From: Thermosphaera aggregans DSM 11486
GTDB taxonomy: Archaea > Thermoproteota > Thermoprotei_A > Sulfolobales > Desulfurococcaceae
Direction: 5' to 3'
NCBI RefSeq assembly: GCF_000092185.1
Contig: NC_014160.1
Coordinates: forward strand, 806,001-870,000
DNA length: 64,000 nucleotides
How positions within the stretch are numbered: the stretch's first letter is position 1; every line of letters begins with the position of its first letter. Shown here piece by piece: positions 4,052 through 52,940 of this stretch. The position numbers were made by a program, and so were the translations under genes. A model generated the notes under the pieces. It saw nothing but the letters and a program-made list of their open reading frames with translations. It was not told the origin of the DNA and did no database searches.

Positions 4052-4870
4052 ATGACCGAGATAGAGGTGGCAGTTCCCACCAGCATTCTCCGGGTAGAGT
4101 CCACTCTACTTTTGAAAACCCTGAGGATACACCAGGTAGCCAGGATACTGGGGATCTTCGGGGTTTCAAGAATATTCTTCTACAGGGATTTCGAGACTGA
4201 TCCATCAACCCACAGGGAGTACGCTAGATTGATCAGGAAGCAGTGGGAGTACTTCTTCACACCCCCATACCTGAGGAGGAGGCTTGTCCCGAGGAACCCT
4301 CTCCTGAAACACGTCGGGATGCTCCCGCCCATCCGCCTGGAATGGTTCGACGTCCCCCGTAGGCTTAAACCCGGGGATGAAAGAGTCGGATACGTTTTCA
4401 AGGAGGGCGGCGGCTTCAAAGTATACGTTGACTCCTCAAGAGTTTTCAACGCGGTCGGCGAGTGCCGGGAGGGGCTGGGCGTGATAAGGATAGTGGACCC
4501 TGGGGAGAAGATGGCTGAGTGTGTCGGCAAGGACTTCTACAAGGGGCCTGAGCCCCGGTTTGCGGATAGTTTCAAGCAACTCTTAGAGGAGAGCAGGGGC
4601 GCGAGGATTGTGGCGACAAGCAGGTATGGGCGCGTCCCAGGCTTCGAAGACCTATCGGCCCTATCATCCAGCAACAGGGTGCTAATACTCTTCGGATCCC
4701 CCTCAAGAGGACTGCACGATATAGCTGGGGCCGAAGGGTTTAGGCTCGAGGAGCTCGGGGACGTGTGGAACACTGTGCCAGGTCAGAGAGTTAAGACCGT
4801 GAGAACGGAGGAGGCTTTAATAATAACTCTTGGACTAGTAAATCATGCTTTAAAATTAAAAAGGATTTGA
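4052..4870 (+). CDS. SPOUT-class RNA methyltransferase, C9orf114/SPOUT1-like
   Basis: A 272-residue protein with the layout of the archaeal 'putative RNA methyltransferase' SPOUT family: an N-terminal IHQVARILGIFGVSRIFFYRD segment, a middle PPYLRRRLVPRNPLLKHVGMLPP segment, an inserted OB-like region (HVGMLPPIRL... GYVFKEGG), and a C-terminal knot region LILFGSPSRGLHDIAG where the SAM-binding trefoil knot forms. These enzymes are thought to methylate RNA. The gene directly precedes rpl3, its common archaeal position. The RNA target cannot be read from the sequence. Confidence 0.8.
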   Translation: MTEIEVAVPTSILRVESTLLLKTLRIHQVARILGIFGVSRIFFYRDFETDPSTHREYARLIRKQWEYFFTPPYLRRRLVPRNPLLKHVGMLPPIRLEWFDVPRRLKPGDERVGYVFKEGGGFKVYVDSSRVFNAVGECREGLGVIRIVDPGEKMAECVGKDFYKGPEPRFADSFKQLLEESRGARIVATSRYGRVPGFEDLSALSSSNRVLILFGSPSRGLHDIAGAEGFRLEELGDVWNTVPGQRVKTVRTEEALIITLGLVNHALKLKRI

Positions 4871-4888
4871 GAAATTAGATTGAACAAT

Positions 4889-4900
4889 ATGCTTTAAAAC
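4889..4900 (+). promoter_or_regulatory. TATA box upstream of rpl3
   Basis: CTTTAAAA at 4892-4899 lies about 40 bp before the rpl3 ATG. That would put transcription start near 4920, with a GGTGG ribosome binding site between it and the start codon. It is the likely head promoter of the ribosomal super-operon. Confidence 0.5.
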
Positions 4901-4935
4901 CTGGTATAATAATCCATCCATGAAGGTGGAAGCTA

Positions 4936-6123
4936 ATGGGTCATCGAAAGCTACACGCGCCGAGACGCGGAAGCCTTGGCGTCAGACCAAGGAAGAGAGC
5001 GGAGGAGCTGACCCCTCGCGTCAGGACGTGGCCCGCTAAGACATGGGCCGAGCTATTGCTGGAGAAGTATGGGAAGGATGCTGAGAAGCACGGGGTAGTG
5101 TCGAAGCCAGTGCTACTCGGCTTCGCCGCGTACAAGGCTGGAATGACCCATGCCTTAATGGTTGAGGATAGGCCTAACACTCCTTTCACAGGCAAGGAGG
5201 TTTTCACACCCGTAACTATCCTGGATGCCCCGCCCATGGTTATCCTTGGTTTACGTGCTTATAGTGTTGGAGAACAGGGAGGCCTCGTCTCACTGGGCGA
5301 GGCCTGGAGAAGCCCTGTTGAAGCAGTGGGCAAGGCTTACGAGGAATACTACAGCAAGAACCCCTTGCTAACGGAGAGAGTTGACAGCGTTGTAAGGAAG
5401 TATCTGCAGGGGCTCAGGAAGCTTAACCATGGATTAGTCAAGCCAGACCCCACGGGGAAGTACGGGTTCAAGTTCGTGGAGACGAACTGGGAGGAGGCTT
5501 TCAAGAAGGTTTTCACCGGGAACGTTGTCGAGGTTAGGGCGCTGGCTTCAACAATACCCGTTCTCTCAGGCTTCGCGAAAAAGAAGCCCGAGATTGTTGA
5601 GATAAAGATCGGCGGGGGAAAGGTTGAGGAAATCGTGAAATACGGTGAGAGCGTTCTCGGCGGACTGGTCACGGTGAGGGATGTTTTCACGGAGGGTCAG
5701 TTCATCGATGTGATAGGGGTTACTAAGGGCAAGGGCTTCCAGGGCGTGGTGAAAAGGTTTGGCGTGAAAGTGCTTCCGAGATGGCATAAGCACAGGAAGG
5801 GTGCTAGGAAGATAGGCTCGAGAAGCCCTGCTTTCGGAACAATGAGCGAACCCCCGCAGGCCGGTCAGACAGGGTTCCACAGGAGGACAGACTACAACAA
5901 GCGCATCCTGAGGATAGGGTTCAACGGGCTCGAGGTCACGCCCAGCGGCGGCTTCCTACACTACGGCCTCGTCTACGGGCCCTACTTAATGCTGAAGGGC
6001 ACGGTGTTCGGCCCCGCTAAAAGGTTATTGATACTGAGACACCCGGTTAGACCGCCCACGTGGCTTCCCCTGGAATCCCCTAAGATCACGTACTTAAACC
6101 TTGAGAGCAAGCAGGGTATTTAG
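4936..6123 (+). CDS. rpl3: Ribosomal protein uL3
   Basis: A 395-residue archaeal uL3, which contacts the peptidyl-transferase centre of 23S rRNA. Diagnostic stretches are the N-terminal [20 protein letters not shown] and the central region [17 protein letters not shown] followed by the W-finger region [18 protein letters not shown]. The ATG at 4936 follows a GGTGG ribosome binding site by six bases. It is somewhat long for an archaeal uL3, mainly because of its N-terminal half. It heads the ribosomal operon. Confidence 0.97.
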
Positions 6124-45379: not shown

Positions 45380-45481
45380 CGCATGACTTTTCACGATGTT
45401 TGACGACGCTTTAGGATAGTGTTCGGCTCGTAAAACGATTTTTATACGTGTAGCATGTTAGTTAATGCTTGGTGTTTAATA

Positions 45482-46114
45482 GTGAGGCATGCATGGATCG
45501 GTCTTACAAGTATTCTCTTACTAATCTTACTCACAATCTCCACGGCGGTTTCGGTGAGCGCTGAAAGCGTGGTTTACCGCTCGGGAGATTGGGCTTCTTA
45601 TAGGGCTTCACTAAATATTGGAGGGGTTGAGTGCGTCTACAGGATTAGGCTAACAGTTAAGGAAGTTAACGGGACTATTGTAAAGTATTCCTTGGCGCTT
45701 GAACAGCTCGAGAAAGGTGATGAGCAGAAGTGTCAATTAATTTCAACGCTTCTCCTCCTTGGGCTTACGTTTTCAACAAATATTGAGAAGGATGTTTCAA
45801 CCCTAACTCCCGAGTCTAAGGAGGTTTTGATAAATCCTTCATACACAGGTAAGTACACGACAAGTGATGGAGCAGTAGTCTCTTACGCTAGAGGTGTTTT
45901 AACAATGCTCGAGCAGGAATCCAGCGATATCATTGTGGGCCGTGTTAAAATAGAGCTAGTAGATACCAGCATACTTCTAATCAAGCTATACGGTTGGCTA
46001 CCATACATAGTGATCGCGGGGGTCGCCATAGCACTTGTCGCCGCGACCGTGTGGTTGATCAGACGTCTCAGGAGGAAGGTTGAAAAACCGTTGAGCCAGT
46101 TCGAGTTTAGGTGA
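45482..46114 (+). CDS. Secreted, C-terminally membrane-anchored protein, unknown
   Basis: 210 residues from GTG 45482: signal peptide IGLTSILLLILLTISTAVSV ending near AES, a beta-rich ectodomain (VYRSGDWASYRASLNIGG; GTIVKYSLALEQ), a C-terminal helix WLPYIVIAGVAIALVAATVW and a basic tail. The frame is open to ATG 45455, but the TATA box TTTTTATAC at 45439-45447 would place transcription start near 45470, so GTG 45482 is more likely. It is similar in layout to the surface proteins downstream, but no family is recognised. Confidence 0.6.
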   Translation: MRHAWIGLTSILLLILLTISTAVSVSAESVVYRSGDWASYRASLNIGGVECVYRIRLTVKEVNGTIVKYSLALEQLEKGDEQKCQLISTLLLLGLTFSTNIEKDVSTLTPESKEVLINPSYTGKYTTSDGAVVSYARGVLTMLEQESSDIIVGRVKIELVDTSILLIKLYGWLPYIVIAGVAIALVAATVWLIRRLRRKVEKPLSQFEFR

Positions 46115-46434: not shown

Positions 46435-46593
46435 TAGCGGGGAAGGATGCTTGCCCGAAGTTTGGGCTCTAATAATACTCGTTACCCGCTTTTACCACAT
46501 GTTTGAAAGTGGAAGTGTATTCCTCATATGTATGAAAGGTACGCTTGCTTTATTAATACTTGTAGCTTATTTTCAAACCAAGGTGTTTGTATT

Positions 46594-47154
46594 TTGACAA
46601 ACGTGTTCATAGTTATAACGCTCCTGCTTTCAATCCTGCTAGTAAGCGTCGGGTACGGCTTGTGGAGCGATTCCTTGAAAGCTAATGTCTACATTTACAT
46701 GTTCCCCGGGTACTTGGAAATCGGTTCCTGGAAGGTTTTCGCAGGCTACAGATGCGATGGATGCCTAGGTTACAATTTAACCTACTTGTCACCGAGCAAC
46801 GATACCTTACACATACTTATCGGGGATAGAGCCATTGAATACGCGTGGATAGGGTTAGTGATAGAGAATAATAACGAAGTTAACATCTACTTGAGGGATA
46901 TAGAGGTTAAGATCAACGATACGTCGGGAGATTATAATTTAACTCCCATATCATACCTTTATGAACCGGTTAAAACAGGCGTGGGCTATATGCCCTACTG
47001 GGGAGGAGTTAAATGCTCTGACCTACCAGTAAGCGGTTACCTGGCATGGTATCCTGTACTAGTCAAGCCGGGCTATAAAATGGTGGCGTGGCTCTATGTA
47101 GAGCTCGGGCTAAGCAACGCTGAAATTACCGTGAAGATAGTTTCAGATTATTAA
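46594..47154 (+). CDS. TasA/AbpA-like surface filament subunit 1
   Basis: About 186 residues from TTG 46594 (the frame is open further up, but this start gives a clean signal peptide). Hydrophobic TNVFIVITLLLSILLVSVGY then GLWSDSLKANVYI, the W-x-D/E-S/T-L-K-x-N motif shared with the two subunits at 47987 and 48607. The rest is beta-rich with sequons (NLT, NDT) and four Cys. By analogy to TasA/camelysin and archaeal bundling pilins, the segment after the cleavage site could act as a donor strand. It is the most divergent of the three. Confidence 0.6.
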   Translation: MTNVFIVITLLLSILLVSVGYGLWSDSLKANVYIYMFPGYLEIGSWKVFAGYRCDGCLGYNLTYLSPSNDTLHILIGDRAIEYAWIGLVIENNNEVNIYLRDIEVKINDTSGDYNLTPISYLYEPVKTGVGYMPYWGGVKCSDLPVSGYLAWYPVLVKPGYKMVAWLYVELGLSNAEITVKIVSDY

Positions 47155-47290
47155 ACACAACGTGATGTTTGATTAAACAATTTATTATCAAAAATAACTA
47201 ATTTCTTTTTAAAAATGTATGAAAAATACGGAAGGTTTATAGGTAGATAGTAACATTAAAATAACAAGATATTTAGTGAAGGTTTAATGC

Positions 47291-47893
47291 TTGAGTAATA
47301 GAACACGAATCGACATAGTTGAGAAAATCCTGGACTATATAGCAAGGGAGGAGAAAGCCCTTAAAACCCATATTCTCTACGCTTCAAACCTGAACAGCAG
47401 TAATCTTAACAGGTACCTGGACTGGATGGAAAAGCTCGGTCTAGTTGAAAGGTTTGAGGACGGGAGGAACATAGCATACACGATCACCCCAAGAGGGATA
47501 GAAATCCTCGACAAGTTGAAAAATATTAACGATGTGTTAAATGGCAAGAGGGATTTGTTCAGAGATGAGCTTGTACTCCACAGGGATGTCTTGAAGAAAA
47601 CTATGGGCTCGCAGGAATTAACAGTTGCCTATAGGTCGGTATTAGGTAGAACCGGGTTAACCTACATCCACCTTACAGTGAGATATAGAGGTTTAGAGCA
47701 TCTTCTACTCTCTTTAAACGAGACAACCGTCTCACAATACTTAGTTAGAAATCTCGCCTACTCGCTACTTGTCTCAGCTGATACCAGTATGCCCTTACTG
47801 ATTATCCTGAGAAATAAGAGGATACAGGACGTGGTCGCAAAGCTAGCCTCGCTGATCGCTTCAGGCAGGGAAGTTGAGATAGTAGCGGTTTAA
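47291..47893 (+). CDS. Winged-helix transcription regulator
   Basis: 200 residues from TTG 47291. The N-terminal 85 residues form a winged helix-turn-helix: RIDIVEKILDYIAREEKALK, LNSSNLNRYLDWMEKLGLVE (recognition helix), and wing plus ITPRGIEILDKLKNI. The C-terminal 110 residues are an unassigned alpha/beta region (LTYIHLTVRYRGLEHLLL; SADTSMPLLIILRNK) that could sense a ligand or dimerise. It sits inside the filament locus, just before a 32-bp dyad at 47894-47925, so it most likely controls these genes. Confidence 0.75.
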   Translation: MSNRTRIDIVEKILDYIAREEKALKTHILYASNLNSSNLNRYLDWMEKLGLVERFEDGRNIAYTITPRGIEILDKLKNINDVLNGKRDLFRDELVLHRDVLKKTMGSQELTVAYRSVLGRTGLTYIHLTVRYRGLEHLLLSLNETTVSQYLVRNLAYSLLVSADTSMPLLIILRNKRIQDVVAKLASLIASGREVEIVAV

Positions 47894-47925
47894 TATGTAC
47901 TAACCATACATATGGTTAATACATA
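47894..47925. promoter_or_regulatory. 32-bp operator-like dyad
   Basis: TATGTACTAACCATAC (47894-47909) and ATATGGTTAATACATA (47910-47925) are inverted repeats, 14 of 16 positions complementary, with no spacer. It begins directly after the regulator's stop and lies upstream of the TATA-like TATTTTAAATA (about 47952) of subunit gene 47987. The absence of a loop argues for a DNA operator rather than an RNA hairpin. Confidence 0.6.
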
Positions 47926-47950
47926 TTACTTCTGCACTAGTGTTTTAAAA

Positions 47951-47965
47951 GTTATTTTAAATAAC
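47951..47965 (+). promoter_or_regulatory. TATA box in a perfect palindrome before subunit 2
   Basis: GTTATTTTAAATAAC is a perfect 7-1-7 inverted repeat containing TTTTAAATA. It lies about 30 bp before ATG 47987, with AAAGGTG (ribosome binding site) between. Confidence 0.5.
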
Positions 47966-47986
47966 TCTAACCGAAAGGTGTAATAT

Positions 47987-48541
47987 ATGAAATCTATATC
48001 GAATATAATGGGCTTAACCTTCATAGGGTTAATGCTCCTAGCTCTAGGCGTGGCAACAGCTATGTGGATGGAGACATTGAAGATAAATACTTACGTCGAA
48101 ACTGGAGAGGTAAAGGTAGCTTGGACAGATTGGATGTGTTCAGACGAGGGTCCGGACCCTCAGGCCGGCGAACCCTTCCATAACGAGGAAGGCAAGGATG
48201 TTGCACAATGCATTGTAACACCGGAAATATATGATGAAGAGCAAAACGTTATCAAGGTCAACATTACGTTAGTTAACGCATACCCAGGGTATGCACCGTA
48301 TATAACGCTATATGCAGGTAATATTGGGACAATACCTGTCAAACTATTAAACTACAGTATTTCAGAGTACAATGAGGAAGCCTTGACAGTTACCCTAGAA
48401 ATTCCAGAGGACACTCAGATACACCCGGACGAATCCCTGGCGATAGGGATACAGATAATTATAAACCAGGAAGCCACAGAGCTGACAACATACTCGTTCG
48501 AACTAGAATTCACGTTCGCACAGTGGAACGAGGTTCCATAG
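47987..48541 (+). CDS. TasA/AbpA-like surface filament subunit 2
   Basis: 184 residues. Signal segment MGLTFIGLMLLALGVATAM, then W-x-E-T-LKINTYVETGEVKVAW, the motif shared by all three locus subunits. A beta-sandwich follows with ITLVNAYPGYAPYITLYAGN and IGTIPVKLLNY, ending FTFAQWNEVP; these stretches align with the next subunit (TLVNVYPWYYTHI; DGTIPLK; AIAWNE). Rich in Glu and Thr, two Cys in the first third. ATG 47987 follows AAAGGTG. It is probably processed by the SipW-like peptidase at 49322. Confidence 0.72.
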   Translation: MKSISNIMGLTFIGLMLLALGVATAMWMETLKINTYVETGEVKVAWTDWMCSDEGPDPQAGEPFHNEEGKDVAQCIVTPEIYDEEQNVIKVNITLVNAYPGYAPYITLYAGNIGTIPVKLLNYSISEYNEEALTVTLEIPEDTQIHPDESLAIGIQIIINQEATELTTYSFELEFTFAQWNEVP

Positions 48542-48578
48542 TTTTTTTAAAGTAAGATGCTCGCGCGTAGCGAGCATC
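48541..48578 (+). terminator. T-run and perfect hairpin between filament subunit genes
   Basis: A TTTTTTT run (48542-48548) follows the stop of subunit 2. Then GATGCTCGC (48556-48564) and GCGAGCATC (48570-48578) form a perfect 9-bp stem with loop GCGTA. It may partially terminate or stabilise the transcript and so set subunit ratios. Confidence 0.6.
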
Positions 48579-48606
48579 GGTCCATAGCATAATATGGTGT
48601 ATTCAA

Positions 48607-49302
48607 ATGAATAAAAGCATGATATATATGTTAAGCATGGCGCTCGTAGGGTTGTCAGTCCTCGCAGGACTAGCCATGTGGACTGATAGCTTGAAAGCAA
48701 ACAGTTATGTGTCAACAGGAGAGCTTGACTGGGAAATAGTGTCCGGGCCAACCATTTGGCTGGACGCCTGCGGCCTTGAGCCGGGGTATGGGATGTTCAA
48801 AGGGAATGACTGGAACGCAACCTTTCTCCCAATGCCAGGCGCTGCCCAGCTCGACAAGGACGTGGGGTGTACCAATGTTTCCCTCATAGATTCCGACGGC
48901 GACGGAGACTATGATACTATGAACGTTACATTAGTTAACGTTTACCCATGGTACTATACGCACATAGCTTTCAAAGTACACAATGATGGAACGATACCTT
49001 TGAAAATATGGAGAGTTGTCTTTGATGGGCACGAGTATTACGAGATAAACGAGGCTGAGTTGCAACAAGGTGTCGAAGTAGATTTGAACGGTGATGGTCA
49101 ACCCGACATACTGGTATGGTGGGGAGACAACTTCGGCAAGCAACTTCACCCTTGTCAATCAGCAGACATAAGTTTCGATTTAACAATACTGCAGACGGCT
49201 CCACAGGGAGCATCACTCTCATTCACAATATACTTTGACGCAATAGCTTGGAACGAGTATTACACTCCTTCCACGGTGACTCCAATCCCAGATAAAGAGT
49301 AA
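48607..49302 (+). CDS. TasA/AbpA-like surface filament subunit 3 with Ca-binding-like loops
   Basis: 231 residues. Signal segment MLSMALVGLSVLAGLAM, then W-T-DSLKANSYVSTGELDW. The ectodomain has two Asp-rich loops, DSDGDGDYD and DLNGDGQPD, that look like dockerin/thrombospondin-type Ca2+ sites, then LHPCQSADISFDL and the ending IYFDAIAWNEYY plus a Pro/Thr tail. Aligns with subunit 2 through TLVNVYPWYY and GTIPLK. ATG 48607. Probably a filament subunit or cap exported by Sec and processed by the adjacent peptidase. Confidence 0.72.
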   Translation: MNKSMIYMLSMALVGLSVLAGLAMWTDSLKANSYVSTGELDWEIVSGPTIWLDACGLEPGYGMFKGNDWNATFLPMPGAAQLDKDVGCTNVSLIDSDGDGDYDTMNVTLVNVYPWYYTHIAFKVHNDGTIPLKIWRVVFDGHEYYEINEAELQQGVEVDLNGDGQPDILVWWGDNFGKQLHPCQSADISFDLTILQTAPQGASLSFTIYFDAIAWNEYYTPSTVTPIPDKE

Positions 49303-49321
49303 CCCTACGGGGCGTGTTTAA

Positions 49322-50512
49322 ATGAGCAAATCTTTTTTTATCGAAAACATACACTCCTTCTATTTCATCTTTGCTTTCTCAACTACGATTCTTTTACTCA
49401 CGGGTAAAATGCTTTACAGTAACGCCTACTACTTAATCCCTTCAATGATCTTTCTCATGGGATTTGTACTTAACTATTTCTACTTAAAAGGGTTGAGCGA
49501 GGATTTGTCAAACGCTTTCAACGCTCTATCGGTGATCATATACTCGGCATCCTTCTTAGTAGCAGGCTTGATATGGGGGTTTGGATTGAACAGTTTATTA
49601 TTGACCCCTCTAACCTTAGCACTGAGGACCATGCTAGTCTTTGCAACCGTGGCTTTCACCGAGTCTTCTAGAATCCTCCTTATAGTGAAAACCCGCCTCC
49701 AATCCCACCCTGCCCTCGCCACCGTTGCCTCAGCATTCACCTTGGCAATCATATATGCGTACGTTTTCGAGGGCCCTCCTTCTAGTTTAAACTGGTTTAT
49801 AAAATATCTTGCACTATCATCGTACAGCACGGCTTTATCAATAATAGCGTGGAGGTATGGGTTTAAAACGTTGTTATTGAACGCGCTAACCTACGCTATC
49901 CTCTTTTACCTATTCCCTATCATACCGACTTCCATATCTCTTCTAACAAGTGTTCTCTCTTTAGCGTTGCAGACTATTCTACTCTCCGGGTCCTTGTATG
50001 CTCTAGCCAAGCCTGCCTCGGCCTCCTTGTGGAATCATGCTCGGAAATCCTCCTCGAAAACCCTCTCGATCATGTTTATCATTTTATCGATCCTACTACC
50101 AGGCTCTTTCCTTCTAGGGGTAAGGGTGCTAGCAGTGAGTAGTGGAAGCATGACTCCCTCAATCAATGTTGGAGATGTGGTTGTCTCGATACCTGCTTCA
50201 CCAGGCGAGCTGAAAGCAGGGGATATTATTGTTTTCAGCGGGGGTTCAAGCATTATTGTTCACAGAATTATTGAGCCAGCAGGCAATGACTGTTTTATAA
50301 CTAAGGGGGATGCTAACGAAAGCCCCGATCCCGTATGGGCTTGCGGAAGTAGCATCGTCGGGAAAGTTGTAGTCGTGGTCCCGTTTATAGGCCTGCCTAC
50401 AACTATCCTACTAAGTTTTCTACGGAGCTTCTCCTCGCTTGTATCTTTAGTCATCGCTTTATTATCCCTTGTTTACGTCTTTTATGTTGTGAAAGGAGTT
50501 GTATTATTTTGA
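49322..50512 (+). CDS. SipW/Sec11-type signal peptidase I with N-terminal multi-pass domain
   Basis: 396 residues. About seven N-terminal membrane helices (residues 10-260), then the S26 catalytic domain: AVSSGSMTPSINVGDVV with nucleophile Ser276, DIIVFSGGSSIIVHRIIEP with His314 in place of the bacterial Lys (the ER/archaeal/SipW type), and KGDANESPDPVWAC. A final membrane helix follows. In Bacillus, SipW processes TasA; here the enzyme lies directly after two TasA-like subunits. ATG 49322; its stop overlaps the next start. Confidence 0.85.
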   Translation: MSKSFFIENIHSFYFIFAFSTTILLLTGKMLYSNAYYLIPSMIFLMGFVLNYFYLKGLSEDLSNAFNALSVIIYSASFLVAGLIWGFGLNSLLLTPLTLALRTMLVFATVAFTESSRILLIVKTRLQSHPALATVASAFTLAIIYAYVFEGPPSSLNWFIKYLALSSYSTALSIIAWRYGFKTLLLNALTYAILFYLFPIIPTSISLLTSVLSLALQTILLSGSLYALAKPASASLWNHARKSSSKTLSIMFIILSILLPGSFLLGVRVLAVSSGSMTPSINVGDVVVSIPASPGELKAGDIIVFSGGSSIIVHRIIEPAGNDCFITKGDANESPDPVWACGSSIVGKVVVVVPFIGLPTTILLSFLRSFSSLVSLVIALLSLVYVFYVVKGVVLF

Positions 50513-51555
50513 GTAAAATCCTATCTAGAAGCCACTTATCCTCCGGGAAGGCCGTTAAAAGCCTCCTCATACTACTTACAATCGGATCCATGCTGGCCTT
50601 TACGGTTAGCGCCTTCTATCTTGCCGAGAGCTATAGGCTTCAGCCCTTCAGCCTTTACAAGAACTCGTATAAGGTAGCTGAGATTCGTTCTCAACCCTAT
50701 TATAGCGTGTTCGTCAAGCCATCGTTGATCTATGATTATGCAACTATTGTAAACTATTCGACAATCTACCTTTCCCTAGCGGAAAAAATTGATTATGTCT
50801 TCAACATATCCTGGGCGGTGTACAATAATACCGTGAAGGGTTCGGCTTCAAGCATTGAGTACAGTGTTGAACCCGCCCTCCTGATAACTACTTCGACATG
50901 GAGTAAAAGTTTTACTATAAACCCTGAGGTTCTTGAGACAAGCGAGGGAGTCGTGGTTAAAGGCTCTCTCAACATTGACGAGCTGGAAGGCTTAGTTGAC
51001 GCTATAGACAGGGAGATTCGGGTAAGCTCGTGGAGGTTTGACGCAAACACCACCTTGACCCTCAGGATTCACGTTACGTACTCCACGGGGGTTAGAGCCT
51101 CATACGAGTTGACGCCGTTTATAGCGTTAAGCCTAAACAGAGTGTACAATCTCTTAGCGATATCGACGGGCGGTTTAACGTCATCTTATTCCGAGGAAGT
51201 AAAGAAAACCTTGGAAAACACAATAACTCTTCCGCTAGGCTTGAGCGCTAGGGTATCCACTGTTAGAAATATTACAACTATTTCAACACTGATTACCGGC
51301 TTGTCAACTATAATACTAGCTTACACGACCCTGAGGTCTTACGGAGCGTTTAAAATTCAGAGTAGGGAGAGGTTTAGGAGAAAGATTGTTAAAGCCCGCG
51401 TGGATGAGTATCGTTTTAAAACAGTAGTTTTGGAGAACGCGGAGGATTTTGATGCCTTGGCTAGAAGAATTGATGCGCCAATAATCTATTCGGAGCCGGG
51501 TAAAAAATACTACTTGATAGTGGGAGATACTGCTTACGTTTACTCGGAGAGTTGA
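50509..51555 (+). CDS. DUF5305-like membrane protein, filament accessory factor
   Basis: 348 residues from TTG 50509 (overlapping the peptidase stop). N-terminal helix KSLLILLTIGSMLAFTVSAF, an extracellular beta domain (residues about 30-240; YSVFVKPSLIYDYATIVNYS, AVYNNTVKGSASSIEYSVEP), a second helix (ITTISTLITGLSTIILAYTT) and a cytosolic tail. This is the organisation of DUF5305 proteins, which accompany SipW-type peptidases in archaea. It ends three bases before the convergent RuBisCO gene. Confidence 0.68.
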   Translation: MSKILSRSHLSSGKAVKSLLILLTIGSMLAFTVSAFYLAESYRLQPFSLYKNSYKVAEIRSQPYYSVFVKPSLIYDYATIVNYSTIYLSLAEKIDYVFNISWAVYNNTVKGSASSIEYSVEPALLITTSTWSKSFTINPEVLETSEGVVVKGSLNIDELEGLVDAIDREIRVSSWRFDANTTLTLRIHVTYSTGVRASYELTPFIALSLNRVYNLLAISTGGLTSSYSEEVKKTLENTITLPLGLSARVSTVRNITTISTLITGLSTIILAYTTLRSYGAFKIQSRERFRRKIVKARVDEYRFKTVVLENAEDFDALARRIDAPIIYSEPGKKYYLIVGDTAYVYSES

Positions 51556-51558
51556 AGG

Positions 51559-52896
51559 CTATATTGGTTTAACAAAACCCCATTTCTCCAAAGCACGGGC
51601 AAGCTCCCTGTGGGATTCAGCATACTTGTCGAGAGGAATCCCTTTAACGATCGCGTCTAATGCTTGCCTAACAGCCATTGCGCCAGCCCTGGGACCATCC
51701 GGGTGCCCAACCACCCCGCCCCCCACCTGGAGCACTATATCGGGTCCTAGCGCATCAATCACGGGGGGAAGGTTCCCGGGGTGGAGTCCACCCGAGGATA
51801 CAGGCATTGCCGGCTTAATATGACGCATGTCCTGTGGCAGGTGGAATGGATCCTCGGGATCAGGTGTGAAACTCTGCTCTCTCAATATTTTCGCACACCT
51901 TATAACGTCTAGCCTTCCGCCCTCAAGCTTCCCAGCGCCTGCTGTTCCAACGTGGAGCTGGTCAACCCCTATCACCCTGTAAAGCTTTGCTAGCACGAAC
52001 ATTGATATTCCGTGGTAGGGGTTTCTCGTAAAGGATGCGTGCATTGCTCTGTGAGCGTGAACGGCGAGACCATACTCCTCTGCGAGATCCCTGATGTAGT
52101 TTAAAACTCCCCAACCGGACACTACTACGTCAACCATTACGTAGGGATTCCCGTAGTCAGCGACCAGCCTCAGCCTCTTCTCCATCTCCCTGACGTCAGC
52201 GGTTATGTTTGCAAACCAGGCCTTCCTCTCACCCGTCTCCTTCTCGACCTTGTCAATAACCTTCATTATAGCCTTGGCCCTTGCCTCGAAGCTACAATAC
52301 TTCGGGCTTGTCAGGTTTTCATCGTCCTTGATGTAATCCAGACCACCCATTAACAGCTCGGTGGCGAGTTTTTCAACCTCTTCGGGCGAGTAGCCAACCT
52401 TTGGCTTCGGAACAGTGCCCACGATCGGCCTGTCTTTAACCTTGAAGATCTCCCTTACCCCTTCAACACCCTTGGAGGGGCCTTTGAAATCTTTGAGAAA
52501 TCCTCCCGGCAGGTATATATCCTCAAGCCTTAATCCCTCCACCCGCCTCATTCCGAAAACATTTCCCGCAATGCTCGCCAACAATCCTGGAATATTCCCC
52601 TCCTCAAAGAGCTCGACCGGGTACGCTATCTTAACGATCCATGAACCATCCTTTAAGTCCAAGAACTCATAAGCCCTCCCGCTGAGCCTCCTAACCCTCT
52701 CCCTATCATACCAGTTGTAAACAGTTGTCCATGTACCCGTACTGCTTTCAGCAGCCACTCCCCCCGCGGCATCATCTATTGTGAAGCCCTGGGCTGGCTT
52801 AATCCTGAAGACAGCGATTACATGGTTGTCGGGGTCTGGTTTAAACGTTCTATCAATGTACTCATGATATGTTTCGAAATCGAACTTCTCAGGCAT
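51559..52896 (-). CDS. rbcL: Ribulose-1,5-bisphosphate carboxylase, archaeal form III
   Basis: 445 residues. Active-site landmarks: GGLDYIKDDENLTSPKY (carbamylated Lys190 with the Asp/Glu metal ligands), HAHRAMHASFTRNPYHGISM, loop 6 GTAGAGKLEGG and PVSSGGLHPGNLP. Sequence style and host indicate form III, which fixes CO2 onto RuBP formed from AMP-derived ribose 1,5-bisphosphate rather than in a Calvin cycle. ATG 52896 is chosen; TTG 52911 is nearer to the leaderless position relative to the TATA box at 52941-52947. No AMP phosphorylase gene is in the window. Confidence 0.95.
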   Translation of the reverse strand: MPEKFDFETYHEYIDRTFKPDPDNHVIAVFRIKPAQGFTIDDAAGGVAAESSTGTWTTVYNWYDRERVRRLSGRAYEFLDLKDGSWIVKIAYPVELFEEGNIPGLLASIAGNVFGMRRVEGLRLEDIYLPGGFLKDFKGPSKGVEGVREIFKVKDRPIVGTVPKPKVGYSPEEVEKLATELLMGGLDYIKDDENLTSPKYCSFEARAKAIMKVIDKVEKETGERKAWFANITADVREMEKRLRLVADYGNPYVMVDVVVSGWGVLNYIRDLAEEYGLAVHAHRAMHASFTRNPYHGISMFVLAKLYRVIGVDQLHVGTAGAGKLEGGRLDVIRCAKILREQSFTPDPEDPFHLPQDMRHIKPAMPVSSGGLHPGNLPPVIDALGPDIVLQVGGGVVGHPDGPRAGAMAVRQALDAIVKGIPLDKYAESHRELARALEKWGFVKPI

Positions 52897-52940
52897 GAGA
52901 ACGCGCCTCAAGTGTTTGAAAATATATTGTCTACAGGGAA

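Follow-up and report, generated by a model that had tools for sequence, protein, structure and literature searches.

We have analysed a window of 64,000 nucleotides from the genome of the hot-spring archaeon Thermosphaera aggregans DSM 11486, of the Desulfurococcaceae (NC_014160.1, positions 806,001 to 870,000; coordinates below are those of the window), in which six open reading frames (ORFs), all on the + strand, span positions 46594–51555. They encode three secreted proteins, here called subunits 1, 2 and 3, together with a SipW-type signal peptidase, a DUF5305-like membrane protein and a winged-helix regulator (Table 1). Comparison of the sequences indicates that the locus probably specifies a donor-strand filament system of the AbpX type, with two or three kinds of subunit. 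A preliminary description of this DNA had seen in it a TasA/AbpA-like surface-filament locus, in a lineage where such filaments are little described. Homology to AbpX supports a filament locus with a SipW-type peptidase and several subunits, but not the likeness to AbpA and TasA, and the remark about the lineage is outdated, since the source genome of AbpX belongs to the same order. Filaments of this kind are thus already known, and solved structurally, in the order; what is new is a conserved partner subunit with calcium-loop motifs and an RNA element between two of the genes.

Homology to AbpX and the predicted donor strand

The profile of the subunit 2 family matches AbpX, the 'archaeal bundling protein X' (PDB 9sj2), with an E value of 2.1e-13 over profile positions 27–167 of 186, and that of subunit 3 does so at 7.6e-6 in its central part only. 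Profiles were needed because PDB searches with the single sequences of subunits 2 and 3 gave merely suggestive matches to AbpX (E 0.01–0.02). At the level of motifs, W-x-[DE]-[ST]-L of the subunits aligns with AbpX from residue 2 onward, which is the start of the mature protein: the solved chain of 9sj2 has 163 residues, with Trp as residue 2. In the construct 9rhp, the segment WSETLSLSATISTG stands at the C-terminus rather than the N-terminus, which we read as a self-complemented monomer, as a donor strand would predict.

The AbpX gene (genome G039) encodes 220 residues, including the sequence ...LTYA/QWSETL, where the slash marks the cut, and the gene that follows it is a homologue of the SipW-type peptidase of our cassette (1.2e-54). 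As 220 less 57 leaves 163 residues, AbpX is cut one residue before Trp, which places Trp at P2'. The equivalent sites in T. aggregans are ATA/MWMETL in subunit 2, GLA/MWTDSL in subunit 3 and GYG/LWSDSL in subunit 1, all with an aromatic P2' residue. TasA also has an aromatic residue at P2', and is cut by SipW and poorly by E. coli LepB (PMC10269814). The displaced strand, the cut site of AbpX and the adjoining peptidase homologue are the strongest evidence for the mechanism. A literature search turned up no paper in which an archaeal filament is called AbpX.

The preliminary description rightly picked out the motifs that the secreted proteins share. Of the 183 ORFs of at least 60 amino acids (aa) in the window, only the three subunits contain W.[DE][ST]LK.N.Y, while TLVN[AV]YP[GW]Y, GTIP[VL]K and a terminal WNE are common to subunits 2 and 3 and conserved in their 20 and 21 relatives. 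As surface proteins that begin with a hydrophobic helix, the subunits might be type IV pilins or archaellins that have been misread, but we give this almost no credence: the helix precedes a polar, beta-type mature N-terminus (the signal being judged by eye), the predicted cut is a type I cut by a SipW-like enzyme and not a class III one, no cassette protein matches PF01917 in Pfam, and archaellin-like genes lie elsewhere in the same genome.

Conservation of the gene set

A contig scan with a single gene returned one relative, and whole-genome searches were then used to collect relatives. A Desulfurococcaceae metagenome-assembled genome carries the identical six genes in identical order, and the cassette was also found in relatives of Thermosphaera and in further families. 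The six-gene set is not a chance assembly, because gene order is kept in independent genomes. The subunit 3 profile (E 1e-6) matches 49 of the 144 sampled genomes of the order; among genomes sampled across the phylum, it matches 19 of 250. By our own count, 41 genomes of the order have a strong subunit 3 match, defined as 1e-50 or better, and in 35 of them a peptidase homologue lies on the same contig within about 3 kb. In some cassettes, the peptidase is preceded by a longer, third subunit, or by a subunit 3 whose C-terminus is greatly extended (L088:6877–8133, L048:4941–5924 and L091:6009–7517).

A pair of paralogous subunits and a calcium-loop motif

Subunits 2 and 3 are nearly always adjacent, upstream of one peptidase, and their families are mutual homologues (hhalign 6.8e-37). 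In a tree of 61 sequences, the subunit 3 proteins of most families form one clade (100/98) and the subunit 2 proteins another (93/88), with the assignment to types 2 and 3 being less clean in L052, L054, L055 and the most distant pairs. These separate clades point to an old pair, kept side by side. On sequence grounds, subunits 2 and 3 are best regarded as ancient paralogues that have been retained next to each other across the order. In one close relative, the subunit 2 gene (L037, about 4690–5223) has an in-frame TGA at a conserved Trp, reflecting either a sequencing error or a broken gene. Weak Pfam matches of subunit 2 to RWD and FixG-like domains were rejected as chance.

The loop motif D.[DN].[DN]G..[DE] is present in all 21 homologues of subunit 3, usually twice, and in none of the 20 homologues of subunit 2 or the seven of subunit 1. 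Weak matches to FG-GAP_3 and Dockerin_1 fall at the same spot in 16 and two, respectively, of the 21 subunit 3 members. The motif is of the EF-hand or dockerin-like DxDxDG type, and its conservation makes subunit 3 a predicted calcium-binding protein. The locus would therefore seem to combine a plain subunit and a putative calcium-binding one; neither this pairing nor the paralogy of the two proteins was noticed in the preliminary description. No calcium-loop paralogue was found in the genome of AbpX at E 1e-6.

Motifs of this kind could also belong to a tube or sheath that depends on calcium, as in the cannulae of Pyrodictium, built of CanA, instead of to thin bundling threads, and cannulae likewise use donor strands and calcium, going by the title of a study by Sleutel et al. 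(cited in PMC12326000). We consider such a tube distinctly improbable, as no subunit matches CanA in the PDB search and AbpX is matched instead.

That subunits 2 and 3 form a copolymer is, in our judgement, an evenly balanced proposition. They might instead build two separate homopolymers, or the filament might consist of subunit 2 only, with subunit 3 as a surface adhesin, or a matrix protein dependent on calcium, whose strand serves for attachment only. This would agree with the two proteins forming distinct old clades, with the hint of unequal expression given by the RNA element, and with the single subunit of the solved AbpX locus. We nevertheless think separate polymers rather unlikely, since both proteins keep common donor-strand and groove motifs and have stayed together beside a single peptidase, and since the paralogues TasA and CalY of B. 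cereus co-assemble into a heteropolymer (PMC13082335).

The divergent subunit 1

Subunit 1 most likely starts at the TTG at 46594 and not at the ATG at 46528, because its close homologues begin there. Its family aligns to that of subunit 2 with an hhalign value of 3.6e-11, or 3.6e-14 with 13 members. When the signal and donor strand were removed, the link between the cores was weak with seven members (0.002) and became convincing only after distant members were added (3.9e-6, with control families at 0.46 and 0.88). An NGT[LV]P-type core motif is seen in distant members and is missing from the copy in the window. Subunit 1 is tied to AbpX only via subunit 2, not directly, and these alignments identify it as a distant, divergent relative of subunit 2. 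In three genomes (G130, G063 and G067) its homologues are found at a distance from the cassette or on a different contig, from where they may serve the filament or have another role. By analogy with TapA and CapP (PMC9674648, PMC13082335), subunit 1 could speculatively be an initiator, cap or anchor; the 'tip or anchor' subunits of the preliminary description were a guess.

An RNA element between the genes for subunits 2 and 3

Directly 3' of the stop codon of gene 2, the window and five close relatives have a run of five to seven T followed by a stem-loop, a feature that the preliminary description missed. Six of the nine stem pairs have changed on both sides, and 94% of cells are paired, compared with at most 44% in slid controls. 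The stem-loop folds better than shuffled sequences in four of the five cases tested (z −3.0 to −4.6), the fifth being L038 (z −0.8). The element has no match in Rfam and is absent from more distant relatives, being limited to Thermosphaera and its near kin. It is not a bacterial-type terminator, because the T-run precedes the stem. Transcription in archaea is terminated by U-runs, and we therefore infer that the element is a partial terminator or a message protector, either of which would favour subunit 2. A sigma-70 promoter scan was discarded, as it is uninformative in an archaeon.

Peptidase, accessory protein and regulator

The catalytic residues proposed for the peptidase, Ser276 (50147–50149) and His314 (50261–50263), are invariant in 21 homologues. 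The protein scores 84.8 bits against the NCBIfam model TIGR02228 (cut-off 51.85), which makes it a peptidase of the archaeal/endoplasmic reticulum type, whereas its match to the Bacillus SipW model (4e-12, 46 bits) is below the cut-off of 190. The term 'DUF5305-like' is a fair one for the membrane protein that follows the peptidase in most cassettes: PF17231 is matched over its full profile, at 25.5 bits against a cut-off of 29, indicating a related protein below the cut-off. No paper mentioning DUF5305 was found in the literature searched. The winged-helix regulator has the domain expected from its earlier assignment (HTH_45) and is a conserved neighbour in the cassette.

Evidence against a filament system

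A number of observations weigh against an AbpX-type filament. PDB searches revealed no sequence similarity to AbpA or TasA at E <= 10. When the AlphaFold models for subunits 1 and 3 were compared with the PDB by Foldseek, even the best matches (E 0.01 and 0.015) were not significant; TasA (8aur) appeared for subunit 3 at rank 35 with an insignificant E of 0.18, and neither TasA nor AbpA was among the matches listed for subunit 1. AbpX was not among the listed matches either, possibly because its entries are newer than the library or because uncomplemented monomers model poorly. For subunit 1, neither Pfam nor the PDB yielded a match, in the case of the PDB even with a profile of 13 members. 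The AbpX locus has one subunit, which leaves the two-subunit arrangement outside the solved structure. Finally, the archaellin-like genes could be the source of the 'flagella-like appendages' described for T. aggregans in PMC3035292.

The outcome of the Foldseek searches would also be compatible with secreted beta-sandwich proteins that do not polymerize, for example in the envelope or in adhesion, served by a dedicated signal peptidase, and the same paper states that no regular S-layer was seen in this organism. We find this improbable, given that the homology to AbpX includes the displaced strand segment and that the donor segment is exposed and disordered in the AlphaFold models. The models are beta-rich and of fair confidence (82.7 for subunit 1 and 79.4 for subunit 3), with residues 24–38 of subunit 1 and 28–36 of subunit 3 left unfolded in the monomers at pLDDT < 50.

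A model for assembly and function

In an AbpX-type system, Sec would export subunits 2 and 3, and probably subunit 1, and the dedicated peptidase would cleave them immediately ahead of [ML]-W, so that Trp occupies P2'. The strand thereby released at the N-terminus, W-x-[DE]-[ST]-L-x-x-N..., would then fill the beta-sandwich groove of the next subunit, yielding a very stable thread. Subunit 2 is the probable major building block, while subunit 3 would be its calcium-loop partner, interspersed in the thread or located at thread–thread contacts, where Ca2+ would stiffen or cross-link. Such calcium-controlled stiffening or bundling is a tentative suggestion. Subunit 1 would be present in low abundance as an initiator, cap or anchor, the DUF5305-like protein would help at the membrane, and the winged-helix protein would regulate the set. 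The U-tract and stem-loop may cut readthrough or shield the upstream message, leading to a stoichiometry with subunit 2 in excess. The most specific version of this model, in which the plain and the calcium-binding paralogue form an obligate two-component copolymer whose assembly or bundling is switched by Ca2+ and whose ratio is set by the intercistronic U-tract and stem-loop, we hold to be possible but short of probable.

The growth of T. aggregans in grape-like clusters, each of five up to several hundred cells (PMC3035292), is in favour of an AbpX-type filament. In Thermosphaera, the threads may help to hold these clusters together, which is a reasonable test and not a result; surface appendages could also owe something to the archaellin-like genes and to a second locus of thread-like character. 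This second filament-like locus of the same genome (G000:C1:708500–711700; L098:4538–7691) has three genes in a row, encoding a secreted protein of 190 aa (best PDB match the Sulfolobus 0406 thread, at a weak E of 0.057), a secreted protein of 471 aa and an archaeal signal-peptidase-like protein of 370 aa.

Donor-strand threads are emerging as a common route to biofilms and cell–cell contacts in bacteria and archaea. On the present analysis, AbpX-type filaments would be encoded in roughly one in three of the genomes sampled from the order, and they gain a partner subunit with calcium-loop motifs. The cassette also supplies a defined set of genes to be tested for a part in the grape-like growth of Thermosphaera, and its paired subunits allow a direct test of whether archaeal filaments can be heteropolymers.

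Features of the locus and its surroundings

Table 1. Genes and sequence elements of the predicted filament locus of T. aggregans, in window coordinates.
Feature	Position	Strand	Remarks
Subunit 1, divergent secreted protein (186 aa)	46594–47154	+	Signal segment and motif W-S-D-S-L-K-A-N-V-Y at 46663–46692
Winged-helix regulator (200 aa)	47291–47893	+	Pfam HTH_45, 3.7e-17; linked to the cassette in many relatives
Subunit 2, AbpX-like (184 aa)	47987–48541	+	Putative donor-strand motif W-M-E-T-L-K-I-N-T-Y at 48065–48094
Intercistronic RNA element	48542–48578	+	U7 at 48542–48548 after the subunit 2 stop; 9-bp stem-loop at 48556–48578
Subunit 3, paralogue of subunit 2 (231 aa)	48607–49302	+	Putative donor-strand motif W-T-D-S-L-K-A-N-S-Y at 48679–48708
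Calcium-loop motif 1 of subunit 3, DSDGDGDYD, residues 95–103	48889–48915	+	
Calcium-loop motif 2 of subunit 3, DLNGDGQPD, residues 159–167	49081–49107	+	
Archaeal/SipW-type signal peptidase (396 aa)	49322–50512	+	Long N-terminal membrane part; TIGR02228, 5.6e-24
DUF5305-like membrane accessory (348 aa)	50509–51555	+	4-base overlap with the peptidase gene; PF17231, 1.1e-5

Just upstream of the cassette, and outside the conserved set examined, positions 45455–46114 encode an unannotated protein, secreted and with a membrane helix at its C-terminus. On the other side, a RuBisCO-like large subunit, as judged by its sequence, adjoins the cassette on the − strand (51559–52911); such a gene is ordinary in archaea of this kind.

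Comparison with known filament systems

Works cited in PMC9674648 describe AbpA as forming donor-strand, TasA-related threads in hyperthermophilic archaea, a plan that the T. aggregans subunits would share, although the PDB search detected no sequence similarity. The TasA/TapA/SipW system of B. subtilis and the TasA/CalY/CapP system of B. cereus resemble the cassette in the SipW-type peptidase of the operon, the N-terminal donor strand predicted for the subunits, the aromatic P2' residue and the presence of several SipW substrates (PMC9674648, PMC13082335, PMC10269814). They differ in their partner proteins, and there is no sequence match. We know of no calcium-loop subunit in the Bacillus TasA systems.

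The threads of Sulfolobus (Saci_0406, PDB 7pnb) are crenarchaeal donor-strand threads whose subunit likewise has a type I signal peptide (PMC9715654), but they belong to another family; a thread-like gene is present at a separate locus in T. aggregans, and identity with Saci_0406 was rejected for the cassette subunits. The cannulae of Pyrodictium, a related hyperthermophile, would have the combination of donor strand and calcium in common with the cassette, as far as the reference title in PMC12326000 indicates, and differ from every subunit in sequence. The AbpX locus (L086) departs from that of T. aggregans in its single subunit, with no DUF5305-like or winged-helix neighbour detected. AbpX itself (9sj2, 9rhp) is nevertheless like the T. 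aggregans proteins in profile homology, in the N-terminal strand motif, in the AYPG/GTIP core and in the adjoining homologue of the SipW-type peptidase.

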